Source: Brachionus manjavacas (taxonomy: Eukaryota > Rotifera > Eurotatoria > Ploima > Brachionidae). From it: a stretch of 64,000 nt of DNA. The stretch spans positions 154,001-218,000 of the forward strand of contig JAHQIY010000019.1 in the NCBI GenBank assembly GCA_019054805.1. Reading direction: 5' to 3'. The notes below the pieces were generated by a model. That model made no database searches. It worked only from the letters and a program-made list of their open reading frames with translations, and was not told the origin of the DNA. Of this stretch, positions 27,395-55,186 are shown in pieces (position 1 is the stretch's first letter; each line of letters opens with the position of its first letter). Made by a program: the position numbers and the translations under genes.

Positions 27395-29085
27395 TAGTAG
27401 TAGTAGTAGTTCTTGCTGCGACACCTAACATGTAGATTGTCTAAGCCCATCACCGCCAATTGGCCGTGTAGAGCTGTAGCAGCCGATTCCATTGAACTTA
27501 TCTAAAGCCATTTTAAAATTAGCGGTTGACTTGGATTTCATCACGTTTTCTGGCAACCTATTCCAATGCGGAACTACTCTGTTTGAGAAAAATACATGTT
27601 TGGCATTTACTGCAGCCGCAAAATCGTTTCTAATTTTAGCTCGGAAACTTTCTCTTTGGACTCTGATGCTATTTCCTCTTAACGCCCCGGCTGGTCCCTT
27701 GTTTTCTGATTTATTCACTAGATTCTTGACCAAGCTTACCTTTTCTATTCCATTCACTAGTTTGTACATTTCAATCAAGTCCCCTCTCACTCTTCTTTCA
27801 CTCAGCTTTGTCAGTCCTAATTTTGTCAGCCTCTTTTCATGTTTCTTACAGACAAAGGTATTTTTGTTGCCCTCTCTTGCACCTTTTCCAACGCATTCAC
27901 GTCCATTTTCATACTTGGATTCCAAACCTGCACTGCGTAATCTAGGTGGGGTCTCACCATGGATATATACAATCTTACCCACAGTCTTTCCTCTCTACTT
28001 GTAAACGTTCGCTTTAGCATTCCAAACACACTACTCGCTTTCGCACAAGCACTTTTCACTTGGCTGGTCCACTTCAAATCTGATGAAACCATCACTCCAA
28101 GATCCCTTTCACAATCTGTGGTCGCTAGTATAACATTCCTGTTGCTTTTTTGTGTTTATTTATGCCTTTTATTTAGTCTGCCGAAATGCATTACTTTACA
28201 TTTGTTAGCACAAAGTCCCATACGCCAAACCTCTATCCATTGACATACTGCATCCAGATCTTTCTGTAACATCGCTCTCTCATAAACATTATTAACTATA
28301 CCGAGTATTTTTGAGTCATCTGCATACAATTCCATTTTATTTGAAACGCAGTCAGGTAGGTCATTTATGTACAAAACAAATAGCAGGGGTCCAAGTACAG
28401 ATCCTTGCGGAACTCCACTCAGTACCTCTGACCATCTAGAAACTCCATCTCCAAGTACAACTCGCTGAGTTCTCATACTCAAAAAGTCTTCGAGCCAACT
28501 TACTATTTTCTTACCTAGTCCATAACCACGTAGTTTATGAAGAAGTCGTTGATGCGGTACCGTATCAAAAGCCTTTGAAAAGTCTAATAGTATTTCATCC
28601 ACACTGTTACCTTTGGCCAACTCAGTCGTGATCATATCAAGCGTTTCAAGTAGATTCGTTACACAACCTTTCTTTGGAACAAATCTATGTTGACTTCCAA
28701 TTATTAGATTATTCTCTTGAAGGTAGAACATTATTCGGTCCCTGACAATACCTTCCGGAACTTTACAAGCGACAGACGTCAGTGATACGGGTCGATAATT
28801 AGCTGGCTCTAATTTACTTCCTTTTTTGTAGATCGGAGACACGTTTGCTCTTTTCCACTCTTTTGGGATTTTTCCTGTCTCTAATGATTTTTCGAAAATT
28901 ATCTTCAATGGAACTGACATCGTTTTTGCGCAGTTTTTCAGTATCAGTGGATGTACTTGGTCTGTGCCCATCGATTTGTTGCCATTTAATTTCTCTAGTC
29001 TCCGTTCAATCAGATCCTCGTTTAGCTCCTGCATGACATTCTCAATATCGAAAGTAGAGGAAGTACGTAAAGGAAAAAAAGGCAA
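27395..29085 (-). mobile_element. 5'-truncated CR1/jockey-type LINE with microsatellite tail
   Basis: The element reads on the minus strand. It starts just before the reverse transcriptase domain, so the endonuclease is missing, and runs to a stop at 27430-27432, then a short UTR and a (CTA)n tail at 27409-27395. Microsatellite-like 3' tails are typical of the CR1/L2 group rather than poly(A) LINEs. The 5' edge is approximate because no target duplication was identified. Confidence 0.85.
27430..29085 (-). pseudogene. Reverse transcriptase ORF relic (RT domain, one nonsense codon, one frameshift)
   Basis: Reading down from 29085: NGNKSMGTDQVHPLILKNC, then ANYRPVSLTSVACK, DFSKAFDTVPHQRL, SGVPQGSVLGPLL and the catalytic LYADDSK. 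An in-frame TAA sits at 28158-28156 and the same frame then continues to about 27840 (SSDLKWTSQV, VRPHLDYAVQVWN). There the frame shifts and carries on as KHEKRLTKLGL to the stop (SNRVVPHWNRLPENV). With two breaks and no endonuclease it cannot move by itself. Family assignment rests on RT and C-terminal motifs remembered from CR1/jockey elements. Confidence 0.88.
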
Positions 29086-29767: not shown

Positions 29768-30664
29768 TTAATTTTGTTTTGAGTCAAATTTTTTTTTTAA
29801 TAATACCTTTTTTAAATGACTTATATATGATAAACATTTTTTAGGTGTTAAAATTTTTTGGAACTTAAATATAGTCTCAATGACCTCATCTTCATTTTTT
29901 CCTTCTTGAGATAAAATCAACTTTTTTAATTCGTTCCAAACCATCTCGATCGGATTTAAGTCTGGCGATTGAGGAGGGGATTTAGCCTTTTTTAATTTAG
30001 AAAATATTTTAAATTAGAATTTTTTTATAAAGAAAAAAATACCCAAATAATTTGATTTTTTTTCAAAAAATCATTACAGATGGAAGAGGTATGTTTCGGG
30101 TCATTGTCCTGATGTAACATGAAATCAAAATCAAAATTTTTAAAAGCGAAAGGAATAAGATATTCTGCCAAAATATCTCTGTATAGAACCGAATTCATGT
30201 TTTGTTTAAAAATCTTTATATTAAAATTTTTTTTATTTTGAAATTAGTCTTATACAGTACCGATTTGACAAGTGGATTTCTGGTAATTTTACGTAAATAT
30301 TACGTAAAATTCTGAAATTCAGTTAAAAGAGGTGATTTTTTAAGTCGTCTAAGGCGAAATCCTTAAAGTAAATTTTGTGTTAAAAACTAAATTTTATAAT
30401 TTTGGGAAAAGAATACCCTGTTTGAATCTATATTTTCGAATTACACTTGCACTAATTTTTTTACCAAACTTTTTGTGAATTTTTTTACTCAACTTTTTAG
30501 AAGACTCTAGACCGTTTAATTTAAGTGTTCGAGCCTAAAATTAAAAAAATTTATAAATTTAAATTCAAAGCATTCATATTCTAATTACATAAATATAATC
30601 TACAATAGAACTTGCTAAAGCGCGATGATTTTTTTTTTGGACTTTTTTTACCAGAACTTCCCAT
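29768..30664 (-). pseudogene. Tc1-type transposase relic with two short introns and deleted centre
   Basis: From 30664 down: a basic N-terminus (MGSSGKKSPKKK), a helix-turn-helix-like stretch (KKLSKKIHKKFGKKISAS), then SPLLTEFQ, as in Tc1 transposases. The frame is kept if introns 30416-30362 (55 nt) and 30042-29987 (56 nt) are removed, each with GT/AG. The C-terminal half has MNSVLYRDILAEYLIPFAF, HQDNDPKHTSS (second catalytic Asp) and SPPQSPDLNPIEMVW (catalytic Glu). The part expected to carry the first catalytic Asp is absent between about 30310 and 30200, where a short TIR-like segment lies instead. The protein ends at the stop 29770-29768. The first exon junction near 30620 is uncertain. 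Confidence 0.8.
30254..30312 (+). repeat. TIR-like segment inside the transposase relic
   Basis: CAGTACCGATTTGACAAGTGG followed by TAATTTTACGTAAA resembles the tips of the surrounding Tc1 element and of the small MITE at 35237-35347. It occupies the place of the deleted catalytic core. Confidence 0.6.
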
Positions 30665-31547: not shown

Positions 31548-32762
31548 TATTATATATCACTAAAGAATTTAGTCTTTAGTCGTTTGGGCAATGTCTTTAT
31601 AAGAGAAATTTAATGAGTTTTGAGAATTTTTTTTAATAAAAATTAATACAGTTTCTTAATTTCTTTTCATAGTTTACATAATTAGATGTGAATTTTTGGA
31701 TTGTTGGGATAGCTTACAACAAGCTTTCGTTAATCATGAGTAAGTTATTCAATGAAAATTTAAACAGATGAATTGATTTTAGAATACTCCGATTAATTTA
31801 TGATCAAATTTTAGGCAGATTAATTCAGCAATTGAAAATTAAATCAGATTATCATCTAATAAAATTACTTTTGAGAAACTTAAAAATAAAAAAAATAAAG
31901 AGAAATTTCCGTGAAATTTTGAAAACTCAACAAAATAACATCTTTGATGATTAGAGTATTAAAAACAATGCTAAGAGCAGTCAAATTTGTTGTCATAACT
32001 CCTAGAAGCTTGACTCGAAAGAATTGCAGATACTGAATTTAATCAAGCAAAAAATCCAAGCAGGTTTAGATCTAAATACACTATAACTCTGCCGTAAGCC
32101 GGTCCCAAGCCCTGGATGAAAAAAGAGGAGGGTGGTGGCAGTCACGCAGTGTGGTCTTCTACGAATCTGAAGAAGAGCTGTATTACGGGTACATAGATCT
32201 ACGGGTCTTTGTCCTAGTCTTGTCGTATGAGGGTGCCGCTGGCTTCGACCAACACCCAGTATAGAATCTTAGCAGAGCAAGAACTTGTTTTACAGCTGAC
32301 CCTCTTTGGATAGCCGTAACTTTGGAAGCGCTAAAGTTAAGACATTCTCTCTTAGAGAGATGTCGCTTGGTTTGTGGTTCCAAGCTAGTCTAAATAGTTG
32401 TCGAGTTCGCAGCCCTTTAGTGCTCGGATGAGTGGCGCTGTTTATGATGAACGTCCCACGTGCTTCTTAGGGGAAGGCGCCGTCATAACTATGCCGTTTG
32501 CCGGTCCCAAGCCCGGATGAAAAAATAGGAGGGTGACTTAATTCAAAGGATTGCTTTAACATTTCTAAGATGGTGTCTAAAATTATTTCACTAAATTTAT
32601 CTTTATGATATAACAAAAAAATGTCATCTTGTGTACCAACATCAACAAGAGATTTTTTTTATCAGAAAAATATTAAACTTATTATTGAAATTGAGAAAAT
32701 TCTATTTTTATTTTTTTTCAAAAACCTCTAACAAATCAAGACAAGAAATTTATAATTTTAGA
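31548..32762. other. Spacer between Tc1 element and the macro-RING-DTC gene
   Basis: 31548-32080 is AT-rich without features. 32083-32535 is the GC-richer repeat unit described separately. 32536-32762 is the probable 5' flank of the next gene, ending in an AG acceptor-like site at 32760-32761 right before its start codon. Confidence 0.55.
32083..32535 (+). repeat. GC-richer repeat bounded by two direct copies of a 45-bp motif
   Basis: The motif GCCGGTCCCAAGCCC(T)GGATGAAAAA(A/T)(G)AGGAGGGT occurs at about 32090-32132 and again at about 32490-32535, bounding about 400 bp with clearly higher GC than its surroundings. A frame on the minus strand at 32383-32183 has no recognised domain. The shape suggests the 3' noncoding part of a retroelement present twice in tandem. 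I could not assign a family. Confidence 0.6.
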
Positions 32763-33890
32763 ATGTCAAATTACTTTGAAAAAGAGGAATTCAAAAATTT
32801 GAATAATAAAAATATTCACTTGATTGTTTTAAAAGCTGACATAGCTCTTTTGGCCAACATCGACTGTATTGTAAATTGTACTGGACCGAGATTTGATCAC
32901 CAAAGTGGAGTTGCCAAAGCGATAACCTTGGCAGCTGGAAGCAATTTAGAAATAGAATTTCAAGATTACCTTAGCAATAATCAATTTTTAAGAGAAAATG
33001 ATGTCGTAATTACGCCATCTTTTAATCTAACTCAACACAAACACATTTTGCACGTGCGATCGCCTCATGACCCAAACTCATTACGATCTATCTATGATCA
33101 ATTATTTAGAACTTGCTTCGATCAGCTCAATTATAACTCCATAGCTGTACCCATTATTGGCAGTGGTAATCGAGGGTTGACTATAGAAGCAAGTGTCAAA
33201 CCAATCATTGATTCTTTAAACAATATTTGTGTATCAGAAAATGTCCAAGTCATCATAGTAAACAATGTCAATGATCAGTATTCAAAATGTGTACAAACAA
33301 TTCGAAAATTGATGAGTGCCAAAAATGTCCATGATGATCAGCAATGTCCAGTTTGTTTGGAAAATATTCAAAATCCAAAATTATTAGACATATGTGGGCA
33401 TGCATTTTGTCAAGCATGTATAGATCAATGCTTCAGAATTAGAAAGCAATGTCCATTATGCAAACAATTATATGGATTACAAATTGGCAATCAACCACAT
33501 GGTAGCATGAAAAGCAAAAGATTAGACATCAATTTACCCGGATTTGATCCATCAATCAAAACAATCGAAATAGAATACAGCTTTCCAGGAGGAATTCAAG
33601 GTCCAGAACATCCGAATCCCGGTTTGCCTTATTCAGGTACAACTCGCATTGCCTATTTGCCAGATAACTCCCAAGGCAGACATGTTCTGTGCCTTTTGGA
33701 GAGAGCTTTTCAGCAGAAATTAATTTTCACTATTGGCCAGTCGAGAACAAATGGACTAGATAATGTGATCACTTGGCACGATATTCATCACAAGACTAAT
33801 ATTAGAGGCGGACCGACACACTTTGGCTATCCGGACCCGACTTATATTCAACGAGTTACTTATGAACTCGCCAGCAAAGGCATCAAATAA
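32763..33890 (+). CDS. Macro domain-RING-Deltex C-terminal (DTC) protein, DTX3L-like
   Basis: An intronless 375-residue protein, reading from the ATG after an AG acceptor-like site at 32760-32761; the frame is open further upstream but that part is AT-rich and non-conserved. Residues about 16-186 form a macro domain (IDCIVNCTGPRFD, AVPIIGSGNRG), a fold that binds ADP-ribose. A C3HC4 RING follows at about 195-233 (CPVCLEN, CGHAFCQAC, CPLC). The DTC domain fills about 237-371 (YGLQIGNQPHGSM, NPGLPYSGTTRIAYLPD, TWHDIHHKT, GYPDPTYIQRV) and is closest to DTX3/DTX3L in my memory. RING plus DTC recruit E2-ubiquitin and NAD+ and can ADP-ribosylate ubiquitin. A ubiquitin ligase that reads ADP-ribose marks with its own macro domain is the likely role. 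The exact function is inferred. Confidence 0.9.
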   Translation: MSNYFEKEEFKNLNNKNIHLIVLKADIALLANIDCIVNCTGPRFDHQSGVAKAITLAAGSNLEIEFQDYLSNNQFLRENDVVITPSFNLTQHKHILHVRSPHDPNSLRSIYDQLFRTCFDQLNYNSIAVPIIGSGNRGLTIEASVKPIIDSLNNICVSENVQVIIVNNVNDQYSKCVQTIRKLMSAKNVHDDQQCPVCLENIQNPKLLDICGHAFCQACIDQCFRIRKQCPLCKQLYGLQIGNQPHGSMKSKRLDINLPGFDPSIKTIEIEYSFPGGIQGPEHPNPGLPYSGTTRIAYLPDNSQGRHVLCLLERAFQQKLIFTIGQSRTNGLDNVITWHDIHHKTNIRGGPTHFGYPDPTYIQRVTYELASKGIK

Positions 33891-34083
33891 AAATGTTAAT
33901 TTATTTTAGACAGTTTTTTTTATTTATTATAAAATAAAAGCTTTCAATTTTAGTTTATATGTGGATAAAAATATGATTTTTTTATTTTTTAATAATTTTT
34001 TTTTTCAAAAAATAAACTGAGTTCAGTAATTTGATTCAGTAAAATGAAGTAAAATTTTTTTTTTATTTTTCATTTAAGAGAAA

Positions 34084-41933: not shown

Positions 41934-43316
41934 TTAGAATACACTTCCGATCAAATCGACTAGGTTCAAATTGGCATTGAACATAGAGGAGGTGTCGAGG
42001 AAGTCGAAGGCGGCGTCGGCCGACGATATCACCGGCTGCGAACTGAACTGATTCGAGTTTAGTATGTTGTCGAGTATTTCAATGGTCGAGTTCTCGATGA
42101 AGTACGGCGCAGTGTCATTACCATGACAACCGTGGTTTATCGTTTCGTGCACACTCTCCCTAGCTGTTTTGTTCTGTTGGCCGAGTGGCTTAAAGAGTTG
42201 CTCAAACGAGTCAGTCAACTTCCAGTCATCGCTCAAATCCAGCTGGTCGTAGTCGAGCTCGTATTTTTGGCTGACATCGGGCCGCTCTTGTTTACTCTTG
42301 ATCAATTGCTTTAGAATACTATCCAACACGGTGCTATTAATGGAGTTCAAAACCGACTGTGACTGCTGACTACTCTGGCTTATGATGGAAAAATTGACGC
42401 CCTTGGCCTTGGCATTGGCAGTGAACACCAGCGGCACTAGGAACATGTTTTCTTTCTTGTTCTTTTTCTCTTCGATTAGACGAGTGTGTCGAATTTTGAG
42501 CAGCTTTTTTTCGCCTTGTATGGGCACTAGCTTGAGAGCGGTAACATTGACGGGCATGGATTTAGTTCGAGATGGAGCGTTTGGTTGTTTTGTGCTGGTA
42601 GAGGGCGAGTGGGCCGGCGTCAATACTAAACAAGCGGGCGGTTGGCGTACTGTTTTGTCTTTGATCAATTTGATGAAATATTTTTTAGGATTGAGCGGCT
42701 GTTCGTTGGAGATGAGGGTCTTGAGCGCTTCGTCGTTCACTTTGAACTTGGAGCTGTAGGAACAAGCCGAATGGACGGAGTCGGGCGGAGTCATGGGCAC
42801 GGACGGGTCGAGCAGCTCGTCCAGAGTCCTCGAGTCGGTGGAGAGGAGAGTTTTTTTTTGCTTTTTTTTCGGCCGGTACTTGTAGTCCGGATACTCTTTG
42901 AAGTGAATTTGTCTGAGACGGTTGGCCTCATGGACGTAGGGCTGGCGCTGCTCGTGGCTCATTTGTTTCCATTTGGCGCCGAGGTTCTTGCTGATCTCGG
43001 CGTTGTGGACGTCGGGCGCTTGCTCGCTGATCCGCCGTCGCTCCATCTGCGACCAGACCATGAACGCGTTCATCGGCCGCTTGATGTGCTGCGCCGGTCT
43101 TCTGTCGTCCAGCTCGGCCAGGTCGGCCAGCGAGCCCTCGTCCTCGTCGTCGTGCATGCCGAAGCTGTGCGACGACTCGCTACGCGTCCGCTTACTGCCC
43201 TTGCCGCTCATCTCGTCCACACTGGGCTCCTCGTGCATCAAAAAGTCAATGTCGAACAATTGAGTTGAGGACGGCGCCTCGAATCGCTGGCTTAGAAACG
43301 AACATGCATTCAACAT
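41934..43316 (-). CDS. SoxC-like HMG-box transcription factor, paralogue 1
   Basis: An intronless 460-residue protein. The HMG box spans about 77-155: [36 protein letters not shown] and [12 protein letters not shown]. The intact RPMNAFMVW signature places it in the Sox family, and HNAEISK with [11 protein letters not shown] is most like the SoxC group, though parts of helix 2-3 ([20 protein letters not shown]) diverge from vertebrate Sox4/11. Outside the box are an acidic N-terminal stretch (50-72), [10 protein letters not shown], a block [19 protein letters not shown], and a C-terminal acidic/hydrophobic motif [20 protein letters not shown] that is probably transactivating. The last two blocks recur in the paralogue at 53903-55186. 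The box-coding part is much richer in GC than its surroundings. Confidence 0.92.
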
Positions 43317-53902: not shown

Positions 53903-55186
53903 TTAATATTCTATTAAAAAATCAAATAAATTTGTGTCTATGGTATCCATGTTTAAAAAGTCATCCATTGTTGGATTAAGCGTGGTCCGTTGTTCGAATG
54001 AATCAGTCAACTTCCAGTCAACACTTAAATCAAGCTGTTCGTAGTCAACCTGACTGCACGCGTATTCATTTGGCTTATTAATGGATCTAATGATACTGTT
54101 CAAATGAGCTCTGTCCTGGCTGTGATGGGTCCGAATGCTAAGCTTTCGACTGCCAGGCTCAAAGCTTAGAACCACTGGCACATAAATGAGATTATTTTTT
54201 TTTCTCTTCATCACTTCACTTCGCACTTTGAGCATTGATTTGTCTCCTTGAATCGGCATCAGATTCAAACTGGTCACTTTAAGTGACAATTTTTTCGAGC
54301 TGGAAATTTTTTTCCCCCTCTCTGCAGCCAAAGGACTATTGAGCATAATTGGCCTATTGATTATTTTGATCAGTTTTGGCTGTGGCTTCATACTTTCACT
54401 TAGTATCAAATTTCTCAGTGAATTGTCGACTATGTGAAACTTTTGGACGGTGACCGGCTGAGCGGCCTGAGGATGCTCGGGAGGCGTCAATGGCTGGTAG
54501 TTTTGCAGCAAGTCCTGGTCGTGTTGAATTTCGTAGATTTTTTTCTGCTTTTTTTTCGGACGAAACTTGTAGTCCGGGTATTCTTTGAAGTGAATTTGTC
54601 TAAGGCGATTGGCTTCTTGGACAAAGGGCTGACGCTGCTCTTGGCTCATTTGTTTCCATTTGATGCCCAAGTGCTTGCTTATTTCGGCATTGTGTAGGTC
54701 AGGCGCGATTTCTTTTATGCGACGTCTTTCGATTTGTGACCAAACCATGAAAGGGTTCATTGGTCGTTTTATGTGAGACTCGGGTTTTTTTGCGGCATTC
54801 GCTTCAAATGTCTGAAAGTCGTTCAAGTTAAGGGTGGTGTCGGTCAAGTCAGCATCATAGTCCGTCAAATCTGTGAACGACAAAGTCAAATCCTCTTCAT
54901 TAGGCTGATTGGTCTCGCTCTTGGGAGTCTGTGAATCTACCGAGTTCGAAGTGAATGAACAAATGCTTAATTCCGAGTTGGCTGAAGATATTCGCCGTTT
55001 GGCTGACATTTTGCTACCATCATTTGGCTCCGATTTAAACAGTGAGAAGAAAAAATTTTCATCATTTGGATTGTTGGCACTGGGCTGAAAAAGTGATAAA
55101 TCGATGTCGAATGCCGACTCTGAATTGTACTGATCATTGTGGACTGGGTCCGATGTTAAATCGATTATGTCACATGTATTTTGCAT
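53903..55186 (-). CDS. SoxC-like HMG-box transcription factor, paralogue 2
   Basis: An intronless 427-residue protein. The HMG box spans about 138-216 ([51 protein letters not shown]). It has Pro where the Sox signature usually has Ala (RPMNPFMVW). The N-terminal 130 residues are acidic and Ser/Thr-rich, with repeated hydrophobic-acidic patches ([24 protein letters not shown]). C-terminal blocks [19 protein letters not shown] and [18 protein letters not shown] match paralogue 1, 10.6 kb away on the same strand. Shared blocks beyond the DNA-binding domain show a tandem duplication within this lineage. Expected to bind DNA in the nucleus and activate transcription. Targets unknown. Confidence 0.9.

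Follow-up and report, generated by a model that had tools for sequence, protein, structure and literature searches.

The window analyzed here, a stretch of 64,000 nucleotides from a contig of the rotifer Brachionus manjavacas, contains at 32763–33890 of its forward strand an intronless frame of 375 codons that runs to a stop codon without an internal stop. Pfam matches the translation in three places, each above the curated cut-off: a Macro domain at residues 37–145 (E 3.9e-13), a RING of the C3HC4_2 type at residues 194–233 (E 2.2e-9), and a DTC domain at residues 242–374 (E 1.1e-56). These are the only Pfam matches in the frame, which has none to ART/PARP, RRM/KH, or WWE domains. An earlier note on this DNA had claimed that macro, RING, and DTC domains share one intronless chain of 375 residues, and translation and domain search bear this out, down to the two macro motifs that it had singled out (VNCTGP, from residue 37, and GSGNRG, from residue 133).

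The first ATG of the frame is the one at 32763, although the frame is open upstream to 32595. An AG lies immediately 5′ of this ATG (32760–32761, forward strand) and, judged by its position, could be a 3′ splice acceptor; trans-splicing, or a further exon upstream, may occur. The spliced-leader pattern of bdelloid rotifers gave no exact match, and according to PMC1925144 such a leader is absent from a monogonont rotifer. Past the stop codon, by 43 bases, there is an AATAAA polyadenylation-type signal (33933–33938, forward strand), and AATAAA also occurs at 33886, spanning the stop, and at 34011. Just 5′ of the gene, between 32090 and 32540, two similar stretches (gccggtcccaagccc...ggatgaaaaa...aggagggtg) can be recognized by eye ~400 bases apart; they may be the ends of a small mobile element.

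Six of nine other frames of the window that were scanned with Pfam gave a match and three gave none. The matched frames are one with CLASP_N, one with short-chain dehydrogenase and SCP2 domains, two HMG-box proteins, and two that are apparently parts of one lysine-degradation enzyme. The stretch has the look of nuclear DNA from an animal. The HMG-box genes, which may be Sox-like, lie on the same strand ~10.6 kb apart (41937–43316 and 53906–55186, both reverse). Farther upstream of the macro-RING-DTC gene are sequences whose motifs suggest a frame for a reverse transcriptase and remnants of Tc1-like transposases (28156–29085 and 29768–30243, both reverse). Such neighbors, together with the single exon here versus five (by our own reading) in a paralogue described below, would suit a decaying or unexpressed retro-copy, that is, a functionless intronless copy amid transposon remnants. 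We regard this as very unlikely. The frame is intact over all 375 codons, none of its zinc ligands and neither of its catalytic residues is lost, its DTC domain is 59% identical to that of human DTX3L, and its GC content at codon positions 1, 2, and 3 is 0.44, 0.35, and 0.30; the GC content of the whole gene is 36%, versus 29% for the window.

The macrodomain, which in Pfam covers only part of the N-terminal half, extends over residues 4–186 in the structural model (32772–33320, forward strand). This model, of residues 1–188, was built from a macro-only alignment of 32 rows, mostly macrodomains from phage contigs, and is a macro fold with a pLDDT of 93.3 and a pTM of 0.89; residues 16–186, which the earlier note had required to adopt such a fold, do so as far as a model can show, with TM scores of ~0.8 to solved macrodomains. 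A full-length AlphaFold2 model made from three rows was discarded (pLDDT 36.9), and a 45-row full-length alignment, in which the C-terminal halves of the macro domains were misaligned, was set aside in favor of the macro-only one. Foldseek found 261 PDB matches to the macro model at E ≤ 0.001, led by PARP14 macrodomain 1 (3q6z, TM 0.80), with PARP14 macrodomain 3 (4abl) at TM 0.79. The best 50 of the 261, identified mostly by title and molecule name, are without exception macrodomains, chains containing a macrodomain, or chains derived from one. By sequence, the top PDB chain is a two-domain construct of PARP14 macrodomains 1-2 (57.4 bits in total, 33.9 and 21.5 for the two domains), and the closest single domain is PARP14 macrodomain 3 (46.9 bits), to which the identity is 37% in one alignment and 33% over 123 columns of the tree alignment. 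In a macro tree of 16 rows, the window domain falls, with weak support (80/83), among reader macrodomains, namely those of macroH2A, one from PARP9, and macrodomains 2 and 3 of PARP14.

Whether such a domain would read or remove ADP-ribose can be judged from two loops. According to PMC10221186, hydrolytic macrodomains have Asn or Ser plus Gly in loop 1 and a hydrophobic followed by an aromatic residue in loop 2. In the window macrodomain, Gly41 occupies the position of the hydrolase Asn, and Asn136-Arg137 stands in place of the hydrophobic-aromatic pair, so that neither part of the signature typical of MACROD and PARP14 macrodomain 1 is present. Because the residues for hydrolysis are missing, we predict that the domain is an ADP-ribose reader. 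Its fold and its retained Asp26 and Asn38 are compatible with ADP-ribose binding; with most of the loop 1 glycines gone (His46-Gln47-Ser48-Gly49), its affinity could be low. PARP14 macrodomain 3, its closest single-domain match, is listed among binding macrodomains (PMC13224862), and structure 4abk, by its title, has ADP-ribose bound to that domain. The opposite assignment would make the protein an eraser as well as a ligase, with the macrodomain hydrolyzing ADP-ribose or ADP-ribosyl-ubiquitin and the protein editing its own mark. There is precedent in macrodomain 1 of PARP9, which removes Glu-ADPr-Ub (PMC13061329), and the top fold match of the window domain, PARP14 macrodomain 1, is hydrolytic. 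Nevertheless, with Gly41 in loop 1 and Asn-Arg in loop 2 departing from both features given in PMC10221186, we consider hydrolysis by this domain quite improbable and retain the prediction of a reader.

The RING that follows (C195 to C233, 33345–33461, forward strand) has all eight zinc ligands, C195, C198, C211, H213, C216, C219, C230, and C233, in C3HC4 order within 39 residues; together with the Pfam match, they substantiate the C3HC4 RING of the earlier note. Lys234 is at the linchpin position, where DTX1/2/4 also have Lys (PMC7615817). In a partial alignment this RING is five residues shorter than that of DTX2, and it appears to lack the insertions of DTX1/2/4. The DTC domain comes next (residues 242–374, 33486–33884, forward strand) and closes the chain, which thus has the Deltex family layout of RING and then DTC at the C terminus. 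Its sequence identity is 59% with human DTX3L and falls to 51% with DTX2 and 47% with DTX1. In the alignment, His342 (33786–33788, forward strand) is equivalent to the catalytic His582 of DTX2 and His707 of DTX3L, and Glu368 (33864–33866, forward strand) to the catalytic Glu608 of DTX2 and Glu733 of DTX3L. These His and Glu residues are described as strictly conserved catalytic residues of DTC domains (PMC10810221), and substitutions at their positions in DTX2 impair NAD+ ubiquitylation (PMC7615817). The AR motif, which DTX1/2/4 possess and the RING-DTC of DTX3 and DTX3L lacks (PMC11460948), is absent from the window DTC, which has the same two-residue gap relative to DTX1 and DTX2 in the alignment as DTX3L does. 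The identity to DTX3L, the retained His and Glu, and the absent AR motif therefore assign the protein to the DTX3/DTX3L class, as the earlier note's label of a DTX3L-type DTC had implied, and support a RING-DTC that is complete and catalytically plausible. In a DTC tree of 18 rows, the window row has no supported place.

DTX3 and DTX3L, with which the window protein shares the absence of the AR motif, ubiquitylate ssDNA (PMC11460948), and this likeness opens the way to another substrate: the protein could ubiquitylate 3′ ends of ssDNA or RNA, as DTX3L does, with the macrodomain serving only for localization. However, at the position of DTX2 His594 and DTX3L Tyr719, residues that contact the ligand, the window protein has Phe354 (33822–33824, forward strand), and the Y719A mutant of DTX3L is defective on ssDNA (PMC11460948). 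The frame also has no Pfam match to RRM or KH domains. On balance, we think such an activity unlikely; it is in any case not exclusive of the combination of ADP-ribose reader and ligase that we favor below.

The window gene has relatives in its own genome. The 114 Mb in 61 contigs were searched in six frames without intron handling, and, because introns are thus ignored, the counts that follow are lower bounds: at least three places for DTC, nine for macro, 12 for PARP, and four for WWE. The same searches were positive in none of 14 control genomes for DTC and in eight of 14 for macro. All three DTC places are genes with a macro domain ahead of the DTC domain, namely the window gene and two paralogues on contig C6. 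Paralogue 2 encodes 482 residues in five exons, with a Macro match of 27.5 bits over residues 59–153, two RINGs, and a DTC match of 159.9 bits, and it retains the catalytic His and Glu. One of its exons begins within the macro domain, includes the whole second half of that domain and both RINGs, and reaches into the DTC domain; because this single exon spans both domain types, their join is hardly an annotation artifact. Paralogue 3 (L003:118-1884, contig positions ~545291–547057) encodes 588 residues in one frame, with Macro at 31.9 bits, DTC at 82.5 bits, and no Pfam match to a RING; its catalytic His is replaced by Met and its Glu by Lys. KH domains were considered for its N-terminal part and dropped, there being no Pfam match and the best match to a solved structure having an E value of 0.072 (MCM21). 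Its GC content at third codon positions is 0.73, versus 0.30 in the window gene and 0.22 in paralogue 2, in a genome that is AT-rich. The macro domains of the three genes are highly divergent, those of paralogues 2 and 3 lie on long, unresolved branches, and one origin for all three is without support in the 16-row macro tree.

The paralogues also help to weigh a more conventional mode of action, in which the protein would be an ordinary RING ligase aimed at ADP-ribosylated proteins, with ubiquitin passed to lysines and the DTC domain acting only as a second ADP-ribose reader. The intact RING with its Lys linchpin speaks for it, but the window DTC keeps both catalytic residues, and it is paralogue 3, without a RING match, that has lost both. 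We judge this mode of action to be improbable, and the DTC domain of the window protein is better read as a candidate catalytic domain.

No macro-PARP was found in the genome by these six-frame searches, since the macro places (contigs C6, C11, C15, C16, and C19) and the PARP places (C1, C2, C3, C4, and C27) have no contig in common. Frames at six of the 12 PARP places were scanned with Pfam, including one (L028) that is truncated where its locus ends. The WGR type accounts for two of them and the VIT type for one, and three have the PARP domain alone, with a macro match in none of the six. Nor was a WWE-Deltex found by the six-frame search, none of the four WWE places being near any of the three DTC places. 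A fourth gene, on contig C11 (L016:1274-2202), encodes in two exons, as read by eye, a macro domain like those of MACROD and PARP14 macrodomain 1, with the hydrolase signature. It continues into a Cys-rich tail that looks like a degenerate RING and has no Pfam match, and the DTC search of the genome found nothing at this gene. This gene, with its hydrolase-type macro domain and Cys-rich tail, counts in favor of the eraser possibility discussed above.

How does the window protein compare with known systems? DTX3L has a RING-DTC of the same class, with a C3HC4 RING, the His/Glu pair, no AR motif, and the DTC identity given above. It is, however, a protein of 740 residues that begins with RRM and KH-like domains and has no macrodomain (PMC13224862, PMC11460948), whereas the window protein has a macrodomain directly before its RING and no RRM/KH match in its 375 residues. 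PARP9 has a related macrodomain (chain 32hb, 39.3 bits), but its ART domain, hydrolytic macrodomain, and KH domains are missing from the window frame. The same is true of the general layout of the macro-PARPs (PARP9/14/15), macrodomains with a C-terminal ART, as the frame has no PARP domain. PARP14 macrodomain 3, whose loops likewise lack the hydrolase signature, belongs to a transferase of 1801 residues, and the window macrodomain to a putative ligase. Finally, the WWE-Deltex proteins (Drosophila Deltex and DTX1/2/4) share the RING-DTC and the catalytic pair but have two WWE domains, the AR motif, a RING-H2 with insertions, and no macrodomain (PMC8424196, PMC11460948). PMC13224862 and PMC12687431, which place macrodomains on PARP9 and PARP14 and the RING-DTC on DTX3L, are in line with the vertebrate background of the earlier note. 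Its idea of a single-chain version of the PARP9/DTX3L pair holds in part: a macrodomain whose sequence is of the reader type does share one chain with a RING-DTC. A literal fusion of PARP9 and DTX3L does not hold, because the hydrolase macrodomain, the ART domain, and the RRM/KH domains are all missing from the frame, and "single-chain analogue" fits better.

The domain architecture, the modeled macro fold, the zinc ligands, the catalytic pair, the absence of a hydrolase signature, and the two further macro-DTC genes lead us to think that the protein is probably an ADP-ribose reader and an ADP-ribose-ubiquitin E3 ligase on one chain. This reading presupposes expression, a biological role, ADP-ribose binding, ligase activity, and cooperation of the two sites. 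The macrodomain would bind ADP-ribose on a target, or a neighboring unit there, and leave it in place. By analogy with DTX2 and DTX3L, the compact RING would recruit E2~ubiquitin, and the DTC domain would hold ADP-ribose so that His342 and Glu368 could activate its adenine-proximal 3′ hydroxyl. Ubiquitin would then be transferred to this hydroxyl, producing the ADP-ribosyl-ubiquitin mark. Candidate writers of the ADP-ribose are the PARP genes of the same genome, the two WGR-type genes among them.

Macro and DTC domains are also joined in bacteria. Of 32 candidate stretches that the DTC alignment picked out in a prokaryote collection, one was confirmed as a relative, in Endozoicomonas cretensis; searching prokaryote genomes with the whole protein yielded none. 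In the family of E. cretensis, 12 of 37 genomes have DTC matches above the cut-off, at 14 places. By Pfam, the 14 frames comprise six with macro and DTC (L042 and L063–L067), three with RING and DTC (L058, L059, and L061, the RING of L059 being under the cut-off), and five with DTC alone (L057, L060, L062, L068, and L069, the last slightly under the cut-off). They represent few independent cases because the DTC tree shows close kinship among five of the six macro-DTC frames and near identity of L058 and L059. All six macro-DTC frames, which have no RING match, keep the catalytic His and Glu, and all three RING-DTC frames have lost both; among the DTC-only frames, two of the three that were aligned (of five) keep both. 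The bacterial macro-DTC proteins thus resemble the window protein in domain order and catalytic pair, but they differ in having no Pfam RING, in their longer frames (774–1291 residues), and in their macrodomains. By eye, all six of these show NAAN, GG, and Ile-Phe in loop 2, hydrolase-like loops that lend further weight to the eraser possibility. They also form a branch apart from the animal macrodomains (100/100 in the 16-row macro tree), and macro and DTC were therefore probably paired on more than one occasion. The DTC domain of L042, which is 57% identical to that of human DTX3L, suggests gene exchange with animals. Elsewhere, plasmids scanned for DTC gave no match, and phages gave a weak match to macro alone, in two records of Bacillus phage G. 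In viral contigs, neither the whole protein nor the DTC alignment led to a confirmed relative; both scans are seeded by short peptide patterns, so that distant viral kin can escape them.

InterPro may contain invertebrate entries with the macro-RING-DTC order. Within the coverage of our literature search, which included PMC11251020 and PMC11251048, no macro-RING-DTC or macro-DTC protein is described; the Deltex proteins described there have WWE or RRM/KH domains at the N terminus, and the macrodomains belong to partner PARPs (PMC8424196, PMC12687431, PMC13224862). We place the window protein, on its sequence, in the Deltex family and the DTX3/DTX3L class, as a putative member with another reader in front. 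More tentatively, and with the balance tipping slightly against it in our own estimate, macro and DTC in cis could be a recurring general one-chain device, which in this animal would substitute for macro-PARP/DTX3L and WWE-Deltex and in animal-associated bacteria would be a separate assembly. If true, the reading (or erasing) of ADP-ribose and ADP-ribose ubiquitylation on a single chain would be a general device, and the bacterial proteins suggest that some animal-associated microbes also handle the ADP-ribosyl-ubiquitin mark. The large size of the PARP9/DTX3L/PARP14 complex comes with an ADP-ribosyl-ubiquitin mark that is difficult to investigate in cells. A reader and ligase of 375 residues would permit a direct test of whether ADP-ribose reading in cis directs or enhances the transfer of ubiquitin to ADP-ribose; in the host animal, neither a macro-PARP nor a WWE-Deltex turned up in the searches.

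Two pairs of places in the genome searches were also noted. Macro places with equal scores lie ~26 kb apart on contig C6 (2321012 and 2346946), and PARP places with nearly equal scores lie ~9 kb apart on contig C1 (3449213 and 3458623). Both pairs look like recent local duplications.
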